From: Opitutus terrae PB90-1
GTDB lineage: Bacteria; Verrucomicrobiota; Verrucomicrobiia; Opitutales; Opitutaceae
DNA: 64,000 bases
Reading direction: 5' to 3'
Assembly (NCBI RefSeq): GCF_000019965.1
Contig: NC_010571.1
Coordinates: 4,597,001-4,661,000, forward strand
The notes under the pieces were generated by a model that saw nothing but the letters and a program-made list of their open reading frames with translations, was not told where the DNA came from and ran no database searches. The translations under genes and the position numbers were made by a program. Position 1 is the stretch's first letter. Each line of letters begins with the position of its first letter. Positions 44,571 to 49,117 of this stretch are shown one piece after another.

Positions 44571-45611
44571 ATGACTTGGGACGAACTCGATTGGCCCGCG
44601 CTGGACCGGCTGCGCGACGGATTCTTGCGCGGCGGCGCCGCCAGCGGGCACTACTGGCAAAACGCCTCGGATCTCGCGTCCTATGATTTCACCTACGGGG
44701 AGCGGATCGGCTGGAAATGGGACCACGTCTTGCGCGAGCTCCGACTGCGCGGCTGGAGCCCGCGCTCGCGCCGCATCTTCGACTGGGGCTGCGGCAGCGG
44801 CATCGCCGGCCGTCGCGTCGTCGAGTTCTTCGGCGCGGCGACCTTCGACGAGTTGCTGCTCTGGGATCACTCGCCCGTCGCGGCCGATTTCGCCGCCGCA
44901 GCCGCGAGCCGAGCGTTCCCCTCGCTGCAGGTCTCCCCGGTGACACCGGGGTTTCTCGCCAGCGACGAACCGCTCGGATTGTTGCTGATCAGTCACGTCC
45001 TCAACGAACTTTCCGTCGACGCACTCGCCTCCCTGCGCGCGATGTTGGAACGCGCCGACGCCATGCTCTGGGTCGAGCCGGGCACCCACGAGATCAGCCG
45101 CCGGCTCGGACAAATTCGCGACGCGTTGCTCCCGACCCACCGCGTCATCGCCCCGTGCACGCACCAGCTCGGATGCCCGATGTTCCGCGATGGCCGCGAA
45201 CGCGACTGGTGCCACTTCTTCGCCCCGCCACCTGCGGGGATCCACGCGGATTCCGACTGGGTGAAATTCGGTCAGCGCGCCGGTATCGATCTCCGCAGCC
45301 TGCCCTACGCATTCTTCGCGACGGAACGCACCGCCGCTTCCACCGACGCACCCGCGTCGATCGCGCGCGCCGGAGAAACTCCCGTGCCAGCCGAATCGGT
45401 GGAGCTTTCGCGCGTGATCGGCCGAGCCGAACATTTCAAGCCCTACGCGCGCGTGCTCAGCTGCGACGCCGCCGGCCTGGCCGATCTCGAACTCCCGAAG
45501 CGCGCCGATCCCGCGCTCTTCAAGCAGCTCGAGCGCACGAAATCTCCGCTGCTCTACCACTGGCATCGCGAGGGAAACAAAATCGTCGGTGGCGAACCGC
45601 TGGCGGAATAG
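44571..45611 (+). CDS. Rsm22-like methyltransferase (mitochondrial small-subunit type)
   Basis: A 346-residue SAM-dependent protein. Methyltransferase motif I is IFDWGCGSGIAGRRVVEFF (about 67-85). The late signature VIAPCTHQLGCPMFRDG with DWCHFF (about 195-220) is the Cys/His cluster typical of the Rsm22 family (PF09243), whose mitochondrial members act in small ribosomal subunit assembly. ATG 44571 begins MTWDELDWPALDRLRDGFL. Residues around 270 read GETPVPA, the translation of a class A repeat (45372-45390), so a repeat seems to be embedded in the coding sequence. The neighbouring methyltransferase may act in the same RNA-modification setting. Function in this organism is inferred. Confidence 0.82.
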   Translation: MTWDELDWPALDRLRDGFLRGGAASGHYWQNASDLASYDFTYGERIGWKWDHVLRELRLRGWSPRSRRIFDWGCGSGIAGRRVVEFFGAATFDELLLWDHSPVAADFAAAAASRAFPSLQVSPVTPGFLASDEPLGLLLISHVLNELSVDALASLRAMLERADAMLWVEPGTHEISRRLGQIRDALLPTHRVIAPCTHQLGCPMFRDGRERDWCHFFAPPPAGIHADSDWVKFGQRAGIDLRSLPYAFFATERTAASTDAPASIARAGETPVPAESVELSRVIGRAEHFKPYARVLSCDAAGLADLELPKRADPALFKQLERTKSPLLYHWHREGNKIVGGEPLAE

Positions 45612-46526: not shown

Positions 46527-46751
46527 CACTTCGTTCTCTGTCGTCCGGCCGAAAACGCCAGTGCGATTTCCGGCACGCTCTCGGGGTCGGACTACTCTCA
46601 ACGGGGCAGTTCCCCTCCGTCCCGACTTTGCCGGCAGGGGTCACGATCGCTCGCACCGTTATGCGCAATCCAAGTTTGGTGGTCACCGATGCACTATGGC
46701 TACTACAGCTCCACTATTGCTTGCACTAACAGCCCACGTTATCAGAGCCCC

Positions 46752-47357
46752 ATGCTCCAACTCGACAGATTTACCGAAGCACCTGTCCCAATTAAGATCA
46801 TCATTACGATCGTGTGGGCCGGTGTTTTCTTTGCCGGGCTATGGATCTTGTGGTGGAGAACACCCGCGACCGCCAAAACGCCGGCTCCAGAAGTAACGTC
46901 ACAGATGTCCGATAGTTCCAGCAAGGTAGTCGCTGGAACAGTGGGCCAAGTTCAGCAAGGCGGAGCCGGCTCGACATTCATCACGCATGTCGCCGTTAAT
47001 GAGCCAGATTCAGACCGGCAAACACAGGATCTCTATTTCCGCGCGATCTCTCTAGCCCGCGAGATTCTTCAATTCTCGGCAGACCGTCAGAAATCAGAGC
47101 CACCGTATGGCCCGCCATCCGACAGGCTCAACTACGAGCGGCAGATTAGCTACTCTCGCACAACTGTCGCGACGTACACTGAACGCTACTCTTGGCGTGT
47201 CACAGGAATCCTGGAAGAATTGCGTCGGGAAGGTCTGATCGACAGGAGTCTCGAGTCTAGTAATGCGCATCCCACCAACCCGCTTGGCGTGGAAAGCATT
47301 GGGCATGACCTGACAAAGATTTCAGAGCAGTACAGAATTGCCCAGGCCGCTAAGTAG
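46752..47357 (+). CDS. Hypothetical membrane-anchored protein of lower GC
   Basis: About 201 residues. One transmembrane helix (about 13-34, IKIIITIVWAGVFFAGLWILWW) is followed by a Ser/Gln/Gly-rich linker and a soluble domain (about 80-195) with RAISLAREILQFSADRQ and YTERYSWRVTGILEELRREG. Two 60-base stretches I counted by hand gave 52% and 55% GC, below the flanking genes. ATG 46752 gives the compact form; an ATG at 46689 is possible. No family recognised. The composition and lack of relation to neighbours suggest transfer. Confidence 0.65.
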   Translation: MLQLDRFTEAPVPIKIIITIVWAGVFFAGLWILWWRTPATAKTPAPEVTSQMSDSSSKVVAGTVGQVQQGGAGSTFITHVAVNEPDSDRQTQDLYFRAISLAREILQFSADRQKSEPPYGPPSDRLNYERQISYSRTTVATYTERYSWRVTGILEELRREGLIDRSLESSNAHPTNPLGVESIGHDLTKISEQYRIAQAAK

Positions 47358-47447
47358 CTCACTCCACCTTGGCAGACGAGTGCTCCTCATCGGGGCAGAT
47401 TCGCTTTCAGAGCTGCTTTGAAGACGGTCACACTCCTTCCGCAGCGC

Positions 47448-47497
47448 TTGACTCGATCCCGACGCTATGAAACATCGCCCGTTCACTCTCTCCAACC
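47448..47497 (+). promoter_or_regulatory. Possible promoter of the 32-residue basic protein
   Basis: TTGACT at 47448-47453 resembles a -35 box. A weak -10 candidate, AAACAT, lies about 16 bases further on. This is suggestive only; no clear Shine-Dalgarno sequence precedes the ATG at 47498. Confidence 0.3.
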
Positions 47498-47596
47498 ATG
47501 GGCCAACAACTGAACAAGGTCATCAAACGTAAACGCCGCGCCGCCTACTTGAAGCGCAAGAAGGCTCAGGCCAAGACCGCCGCAAAGAAGAAGTAA
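47498..47596 (+). CDS. Very small basic protein (32 residues) next to rimO
   Basis: The product starts MGQQLNKVIKRKRRAAYLKR and ends in a Lys/Ala tail (KTAAKKK); about half of its residues are Lys or Arg. It is the only short open frame in a gap of about 340 bases, has a clean ATG and stop, and is followed 29 bases later by an intrinsic terminator. The composition is that of a nucleic-acid-binding peptide, like very small ribosomal proteins (for example bTHX or bL34), though it matches neither. I have a weak memory of similar short proteins in related Verrucomicrobia, which I cannot check. Its neighbour rimO modifies ribosomal protein S12, which makes a ribosome-associated role plausible but unproved. 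Confidence 0.7.
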   Translation: MGQQLNKVIKRKRRAAYLKRKKAQAKTAAKKK

Positions 47597-47625
47597 GCTC
47601 GCGCACCCTCCCTTTTTTCCGATCG

Positions 47626-47651
47626 CGGCCCCGCAGCGTCGGGGCCGTTTT
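47626..47651 (+). terminator. Rho-independent terminator of the basic-protein gene
   Basis: An 8-base-pair stem CGGCCCCG / CGGGGCCG (47626-47633 and 47640-47647) with loop CAGCGT is followed directly by TTTT (47648-47651). It is the clearest intrinsic terminator in the window and separates the small gene from rimO. Confidence 0.85.
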
Positions 47652-47701: not shown

Positions 47702-49117
47702 ATGATCAAGGTCAGTCTGATTTCCCTCGGTTGCGCCAAGAATCTCGTCGATAGCGAGATCATGGTCGGCCACCTGCACCAGGCCGGCATGGCCGTCATC
47801 CCCGAGGCCGAGAAGGCCGACGTCGTCATCGTCAACACCTGCTCGTTCATCGATTCCTCCAAGGAGGAGTCGATCGGCCACATCCTCGAAGTCCACCAGC
47901 ACCGCGGCCTGCGCAAGCGCCGCAAGGAACAGAAGCTCATCGTCGCCGGCTGCATGTCGCAGCGGTTCTCCAAGGACCTCTCCTCCTCGCTGCACGACGA
48001 GGTCGACGCGTTCATCGGCCTCGACCAGGTCACCAAGGTCGCCCCGATCATTCAGGAAATCTACGCCCGCGAGCGCACGAAGACCGACGATCCGGTTTCG
48101 TTTGTCGAGGGCCGGTCCACCTTCATCCCCGATTACGACACGCCCCGCTTTCGGCTCACGCCGAAGCATTTTGCCTACGTCAAGATCGCCGAGGGCTGCA
48201 ACCACCCGTGCACGTTCTGCATCATCCCGCAGATCCGCGGCCGGCATCGCAGCCGCACCGTCGAAAGCGTCGTCGCGGAGGTCCGGCAGCTCGTCCGCGA
48301 GGGCGTGAAGGAGATCAACCTGATCTCGCAGGACACCACGTTCTTCGGCATGGACACGTGGGAACAGCGGCCGAACCCGCGCACGCCGGTCGATTCCGGC
48401 CGCGGCACCGCGCTCACCACCCTGCTCCGCCAGCTCAACGCGATCGAGGGCGATTTCTGGATCCGGCTGCTCTACACGCACCCGGCGCATTGGAGCGACG
48501 AACTGATCCGCACCATCGCCGAATGCCCGAAGGTCGCGCGCTACATCGATATTCCGCTCCAGCACATCAGCGACGCGATGCTCAGCCGGATGCAGCGCGA
48601 AACCAGCGGTGGCTATATTCGTGATTTGATCGCGCGCATCCGCGCCGGCATTCCCGGCATCGCCGTGCGCACCACGTTCATCGTCGGTTTTCCCGGTGAA
48701 ACCGACGCCGACGTCGACGAGCTCTGCGCGTTCATCAGCGAGACGAAATTCGAACGGCTCGGCGTCTTTCGCTATTCGCAGGAGGACGGCACGCGCGCCG
48801 CGAAAATGCCCGAGCAGCTCTCCGCCAAAACCAAGGAGGCCCGCTGGCACCGCACGATGGCGCTGCAGAAGCAAATCGCCGCCGACGTCAGCAAGACTTA
48901 CGTCGGCCGAACGCTGCGCGTCCTCGTCGAAGAACCCGGTGTGGCCCGCGGCGAGGCCGACGCGCCGGACATCGACGGTCGCGTCTACGTGCCGCGCGAG
49001 TTGCCCGTCGGCGAATTCGCCGACGTGACTGTCACCGGCTATCACGATTACGACCTGCTCGCGCTGCCTCCGGGACAGAAGCCCGCCCAGTGGAAGGTTG
49101 CGCGCCAAGCGCAGTGA
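47702..49117 (+). CDS. rimO: Ribosomal protein S12 methylthiotransferase RimO
   Basis: A 471-residue radical SAM enzyme that adds a methylthio group to an Asp of ribosomal protein S12. The N-terminal MTTase domain carries the three cluster cysteines Cys11 (SLGCAKN), Cys47 (VNTCSF) and Cys84 (AGCMSQ). The radical SAM motif is C166NHPCTFC173, followed by IPQIRGRHRSR typical of RimO/MiaB. A C-terminal TRAM domain spans about 400-465. The start MIKVSLISLGCAKN at ATG 47702 is the RimO-type opening, which separates it from MiaB. It lies downstream of the basic-protein terminator. Confidence 0.95.
   Translation: MIKVSLISLGCAKNLVDSEIMVGHLHQAGMAVIPEAEKADVVIVNTCSFIDSSKEESIGHILEVHQHRGLRKRRKEQKLIVAGCMSQRFSKDLSSSLHDEVDAFIGLDQVTKVAPIIQEIYARERTKTDDPVSFVEGRSTFIPDYDTPRFRLTPKHFAYVKIAEGCNHPCTFCIIPQIRGRHRSRTVESVVAEVRQLVREGVKEINLISQDTTFFGMDTWEQRPNPRTPVDSGRGTALTTLLRQLNAIEGDFWIRLLYTHPAHWSDELIRTIAECPKVARYIDIPLQHISDAMLSRMQRETSGGYIRDLIARIRAGIPGIAVRTTFIVGFPGETDADVDELCAFISETKFERLGVFRYSQEDGTRAAKMPEQLSAKTKEARWHRTMALQKQIAADVSKTYVGRTLRVLVEEPGVARGEADAPDIDGRVYVPRELPVGEFADVTVTGYHDYDLLALPPGQKPAQWKVARQAQ

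Follow-up and report, generated by a model that had tools for sequence, protein, structure and literature searches.

A conserved 32-residue basic protein encoded ahead of rimO, a candidate ribosome-associated protein of Verrucomicrobiota

Organization of the small gene and its surroundings

The window, namely the whole stretch of 64,000 nucleotides analysed here, carries a small gene that encodes a protein of 32 residues and lies directly ahead of rimO (Table 1). Its frame runs from ATG to TAA, and 14 of the 32 residues of the product are Lys or Arg, in addition to a complete lack of Asp and Glu. These features, together with the hairpin past the stop codon and the start of rimO further downstream, agree with the first-pass annotation, which had described a short Lys/Arg-rich frame with clean start and stop codons, an intrinsic terminator 3' of it and rimO as the adjoining gene. 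Single-sequence search against the own genome, a single contig of 5,957,605 bases, returned one match for the small-gene sequence. The small gene is a genuine, single-copy gene.

Table 1. Features around the small gene, in coordinates of the window
Feature	Coordinates	Strand	Evidence
Rsm22/METTL17 homologue, start codon assumed	44571..45611	+	Pfam PF09243, 53.7 bits, cut-off 23
222-residue ORF	46689..47357	+	No Pfam or NCBIfam match
Conserved -35-like element, CTTGACTC	47447..47454	+	CTTGACT in rimO-linked loci
Small gene, 32 residues, MGQQLNKVIKRKRRAAYLKRKKAQAKTAAKKK	47498..47596	+	ORF, conservation, pN/pS 0.40 in frame
Intrinsic terminator between small gene and rimO	47625..47648	+	Hairpin of 9 pairs, 8 of them G-C, followed by TTTATTT
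rimO, ribosomal protein S12 methylthiotransferase	47702..49117	+	NCBIfam TIGR01125, 460.7 bits, cut-off 356.95

Further upstream, the homologue of Rsm22/METTL17 sits 1.9 kb ahead of the small gene, separated from it by a 3-keto-disaccharide hydrolase gene and an ORF of 222 residues. By eye, the latter has a possible membrane segment; among the 155 loci of the small gene compared in this study, its only tblastn match is in its own locus. These 155 loci correspond to 135 distinct 78-base starts and stem from two locus collections that share some genomes.

The upstream region of the rimO-linked loci contains a conserved -35-like element. Within 75 nt before the start codon, the motif CTTGACT was found in 71 of 71 loci, compared to 0 of 71 in the control window of -375 to -300; the remaining one of the 72 rimO-linked loci has too little upstream DNA for the search. 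In these loci the motif lies about 47-65 bases ahead of the start codon. The core TTGAC is kept 54 bases upstream in locus L024 and in L028/L156, which belong to one genome, where rimO is absent from the flanks examined, and the element therefore seems tied to the small gene. Among the 83 loci without rimO, however, 12 have TTGAC within 120 bases, and the -35-like element is thus a feature of the host's family. The extended pattern SCTTGACTCN{12,20}GAAAC has a single match in the genome, that of the small gene; as no regulon is visible with this promoter pattern, co-regulation with other genes was rejected.

Downstream of the stop codon, a terminator-like structure was detected within 110 bases in 69 of the 72 rimO-linked loci, compared to 14 of 72 after shuffling, the control being a simple mononucleotide shuffle. 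A Shine-Dalgarno-like motif is present in none of these 72 loci; elsewhere, 12 of the 35 short members and 2 of the 48 long ones possess it. The small gene seems to form a transcription unit by itself, with promoter use predicted from the conserved element.

Distribution of the small protein and selection on its sequence

Search with the single sequence matched 54 of 95 relatives. In samples drawn from the host's class and from its phylum, the profile A1, built from 30 loci, matched 273 of 384 and 198 of 387 genomes, respectively; the phylum matches include other classes, and the two samples overlap in part. Such recurrence of the frame goes well beyond chance. The matching genomes listed have one copy each, except G405 with two. 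Within the host's order, 51 of 132 genomes gave clear matches, and the gene is absent or undetected in 81, near-complete genomes among them. Given this patchy presence, the small gene might be dispensable or replaceable in whole families, or have diverged past detection.

When genome contigs of every phylum were scanned, 348 relatives were obtained. The best 80 of the 348, close relatives named Opitutaceae, Opitutus or Opitutae among them, all bear names of Verrucomicrobiota, some of them genus names that we take to belong to this phylum. The family is likely restricted to Verrucomicrobiota; this is likely rather than proved, because the names concern the best 80 of the 348 and the patterns of the scan were taken from close relatives, the other genome searches being centred on the host's phylum. 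Spread by mobile elements was rejected, as no relative was confirmed in the viral contigs (27 pattern matches), plasmids or phages searched. A non-coding RNA was rejected as well: the Rfam match lies on the opposite strand and is sub-threshold, with 20.4 bits against a gathering score of 70.

Comparison of 41 diverse members revealed that residues Q4, K10 and R20 are invariant, and that M1, G2, N6, K7, R13, R14 and Y17 are shared by at least 90 percent. The core is nearly invariant, including the uncharged residues Q4, N6 and Y17, and can be written as MGQQxNKxIKRxRRxxYLKRKK. For 55 non-redundant rimO-linked copies, obtained by removing those at least 95 percent identical over the 78-base start, pN/pS is 0.40 in the frame of the small gene, compared to 1.19 and 0.95 in the two shifted frames and 1.28, 0.65 and 1.60 in the three reverse frames. 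The mean column entropy is 0.59 bits within the small gene, against 1.57-1.89 bits upstream of it. Purifying selection is specific to this frame and the entropy within the gene is low; therefore selection acts on the small protein itself. The new very small protein proposed from the first reading of the DNA is thus borne out: conservation, codon-level selection, the conserved promoter-like element and the terminator strongly support it.

Lys/Ala tails of some relatives

At 48 of the 155 loci the relatives are 65-184 residues long, with a core of about 26 residues followed by Lys/Ala/Pro tails of the AKKAPAKKA type; many of them are named Akkermansiaceae, Verrucomicrobiaceae or Prosthecobacter. 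The tailed members include L148, L149 and many of L078-L136, and L147, which stands outside the locus counts, encodes a long-tailed member, too. The window protein itself ends in a C-terminal tail of the form AKxAAKKK. Because some relatives carry such Lys/Ala tails, an H1-like role is conceivable: the small protein would be a nucleoid-associated peptide whose Lys/Arg/Ala composition lets it bind DNA or RNA of any sequence. In line with this, of two tailed proteins scanned against the libraries, one matches HC2 (19.2 bits, cut-off 40) and an H1-like model (19.8 bits, cut-off 80), and the other matches the family of Rv3852 (23.1 bits, E 8e-5, cut-off 100), which we take to be a nucleoid protein.

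However, these matches are all below cut-off and confined to the tails, whereas the conserved part is the core at the N-terminal end, in which particular uncharged residues are kept, and the short members stop about ten residues past it. Moreover, the ribosomal protein bL17 possesses a Lys/Ala-containing tail in three of five genomes (the host, G020 and G275). The tail of bL17 is not Lys-rich in G111 and G449, and the small protein of G111 is a tailed one. Ribosomal proteins of these genomes can thus bear such tails as well, without a strict pairing to a tailed small protein. Altogether, we regard an H1-like nucleoid peptide as unlikely.

Linkage to rimO and to the Rsm22/METTL17 homologue

At 72 of the 155 loci the small gene is followed by rimO on its 3' side, and the proteins of all these loci have 30-40 residues. 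The family label is available for 39 of the 72, all of which belong to the host's family; the other 33 come from the all-phyla scan. At the remaining 83 loci rimO is missing from the flanks examined, 79 of which extend at least 1 kb downstream. Four loci of the host's family (L024, L028, L038 and L052) also have no rimO in the 1.5 kb examined.

For the homologue of Rsm22, 54 non-redundant loci of the host's family type with sufficient upstream DNA were compared, all of them selected for rimO or Rsm22. In 17 of these the homologue lies upstream at no more than 400 bp from the small gene, and in the other 37 it does not. Anywhere upstream, it is present in 9 of the 19 loci that have at least 2.3 kb of upstream DNA. 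Locus L024, included by virtue of Rsm22, has this gene adjacent to the small gene, with rimO absent from the flanks examined. Part of the host's family shows the gene order rsm22 - small gene - rimO. Outside this family, neither rimO nor Rsm22 was found in the flanks examined, the other neighbours vary, and no stable neighbourhood of translation genes was detected. Among these neighbours, by-eye calls that were not used as evidence, are a leucyl-tRNA synthetase-like gene directly before the small gene in another class (L055/L143), a tryptophanyl-tRNA synthetase (L150/L151) and an Obg-like GTPase (L146).

As described in passages of PMC9892005, METTL17/Rsm22 is an assembly factor of the mitoribosomal small subunit; bound between the head and the body, it sequesters h31, a part of the decoding centre. 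The Rsm22 paper PMC8171064, looked through for bacterial members, yielded no passage on them. With RimO, which acts on S12, and the Rsm22/METTL17 homologue as neighbours, the small subunit is indicated, and the linkage of the homologue to the small gene and rimO in part of the family suggests that the homologue takes part in 30S assembly. The neighbourhood support for a ribosomal reading comes from one bacterial family.

Across the order, the two genes also tend to occur together. Counted by genome, 24 of the 31 that have an Rsm22 match (E up to 0.001) possess the small gene, compared to 27 of the 101 that have none (Fisher p 1e-6, kinship uncorrected); the Rsm22 match is over the Pfam cut-off in 24 of the 31. 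Counted by family at the Pfam cut-off, the proportions are 7 of 11 versus 1 of 17 (Fisher p 0.002), or, seen from the other side, Rsm22 occurs in 7 of the 8 families with the small gene and 4 of the 20 without it, 28 families in all; with weaker Rsm22 matches included, they are 7 of 13 versus 1 of 15 (p 0.011). In these counts the surveys of the small gene and of Rsm22 were taken as the same 132 genomes, and the weak small-gene matches in G094 and G713 were left out. With kinship uncorrected, the co-occurrence is suggestive only.

The gene order and the co-occurrence would both fit a dedicated cofactor that acts with Rsm22 and RimO in 30S assembly and is not a stoichiometric component of the ribosome. 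Against such a cofactor, among the 51 genomes of the order in which the small gene was detected, 27 lack an Rsm22 match (E 0.001), and elsewhere in the phylum neither partner gene is found in the flanks examined; we consider it rather improbable. The arrangement of a short ORF, a terminator and then rimO also resembles an attenuator, in which translation of a leader peptide would control the terminator ahead of rimO. Yet the linkage to rimO is not obligate (72 of the 155 loci), and the protein is conserved at the 83 loci lacking rimO in the flanks examined, some of which encode long-tailed members. In addition, TTGAC keeps its spacing from the small gene in L024 and L028/L156, and the protein itself is under purifying selection. 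Since the small gene occurs without rimO outside the host's family, a leader of rimO is very unlikely. A chance ORF, as the short length and the Lys-rich codons might suggest, is contradicted by conservation, frame-specific selection and the conserved start codon, and is extremely improbable.

Proposed role at the small subunit

The structure of the small protein predicted by AlphaFold2 from 30 sequences consists of one helix spanning residues 5-31, with a mean pLDDT of 86.5 and a pTM of 0.45, although the predictor may give a single charged helix for many basic peptides. Size, charge and predicted helix are like those of bS22; together with the neighbours rimO and Rsm22 in the host's family and the invariant or near-invariant uncharged residues of the core, they make, as indirect evidence, a ribosome-associated protein the favoured reading. 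Such an association had been put forward in the first-pass annotation on account of the composition and of rimO. It gains from the Rsm22/METTL17 homologue and from the likeness to bS22, whereas the argument from rimO itself turned out weaker than was held there, because rimO is absent from the flanks examined at 83 of the 155 loci. On balance, the small protein is probably a lineage-specific rRNA-binding protein of the 30S subunit or an assembly peptide, ribosome binding being what we infer from these features.

We propose that the small protein binds rRNA and that its place is most likely in the small subunit. It would be a permanent component of the ribosome or else a peptide stabilizing a late state of 30S assembly. 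The single basic helix, preceded by a short N-terminal arm of the sequence MGQQ, would lie in a groove of the rRNA, where the Lys and Arg residues could neutralize the phosphates. Specific contacts might be provided by the MGQQ arm, including Q4, in addition to N6 and Y17, and the C-terminal Lys/Ala tail would form the variable part.

A more precise location may be put forward tentatively by analogy with the mitoribosome. Passages of PMC9892005 suggest that binding of mS38 in yeast begins after the departure of Rsm22; in human, mS38 is already there in the states that hold METTL17. Taking the suggested order of events in yeast mitochondria as a model, the small protein could be a hitherto uncatalogued ribosomal protein of Verrucomicrobiota, located in the vicinity of the decoding centre or of the 30S head and installed when the Rsm22/METTL17 homologue leaves, alongside the bS22-like protein of the same genome, a possibility that we consider somewhat doubtful. 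By gene order, a bacterial METTL17 homologue is tied to a 30S modification enzyme, which opens the function of bacterial Rsm22 to testing.

Comparison with known families and ribosomal proteins

Search of the window protein against Pfam and NCBIfam gave no match at E up to 10. Among the 41 diverse members, none matched NCBIfam, and Pfam gave three weak matches of single members, to CBFB_NFYA (E 0.031), Ribosomal_S15 (E 0.043) and CcdA (E 0.055). No chain in the PDB is significantly similar to the single sequence or to the profile, the best hits being a designed coiled coil (E 0.13) and an unrelated enzyme (E 7.7), respectively. Five peptide strings of the family are absent from the literature searched, and among the entries listed on novel ribosomal proteins in this phylum, none concerns the small protein. 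A table row in PMC10039652 places an Opitutaceae bacterium among the ribosomes, the nearest solved structure being that of B. subtilis. The family is new to the libraries searched, and in kind it belongs to the lineage-restricted small basic proteins.

The known small ribosomal families bS21, bS22 and bTHX were rejected as an identity of the small gene, since they are separate genes or gave no match. The small-subunit protein bS21 is likewise small, basic and helical, but has its own gene at G000:C1:2686630 (56.6 bits), the sole match of PF01165 in the genome, and the small gene has no match to it. bTHX, a very small, basic protein of the 30S subunit found in certain lineages only, is comparable in size and charge; its model Thx (PF17070), however, gives only 15 bits elsewhere in the genome, against a cut-off of 29.7. 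Compared to the H1-like nucleoproteins (Hc2 and similar), Lys/Ala-rich tails are common to some relatives, whereas the core of the small protein is specific and no HC1/HC2 or H1-like match exceeds its cut-off.

The closest resemblance in size, charge and predicted helix is to bS22, known from mycobacteria, Bacteroidota and Borrelia, with the analogues mS38 and eL41, a location in the h2/h27/h44/h45 pocket of the 16S rRNA, and the Pfam model COX24_C. Nevertheless, the small gene shares no sequence match with bS22, profile comparison aligns one column only, and COX24_C (PF08213) matches elsewhere in the genome, at G000:C1:785859-785945 on the reverse strand (locus L158). This bS22-like gene scores 25.3 bits against COX24_C (cut-off 23) and 18.8 bits against the NCBIfam model ribo_bS22, below the cut-off of 34; across the order, the COX24_C model matches 106 of 132 genomes at E up to 0.01, and in 55 of these the match exceeds the cut-off. 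According to passages of PMC10618245, bS22 of Borrelia has about 31 residues, is extremely basic and helical, binds rRNA and was missed by annotation. The small gene of the window is likewise conserved, single-copy, small and basic, as lineage-specific small ribosomal proteins are, and its product would be a good candidate for a missing component of the ribosome, similar to bS22 and bL38 in Borrelia as presented in PMC10618245.
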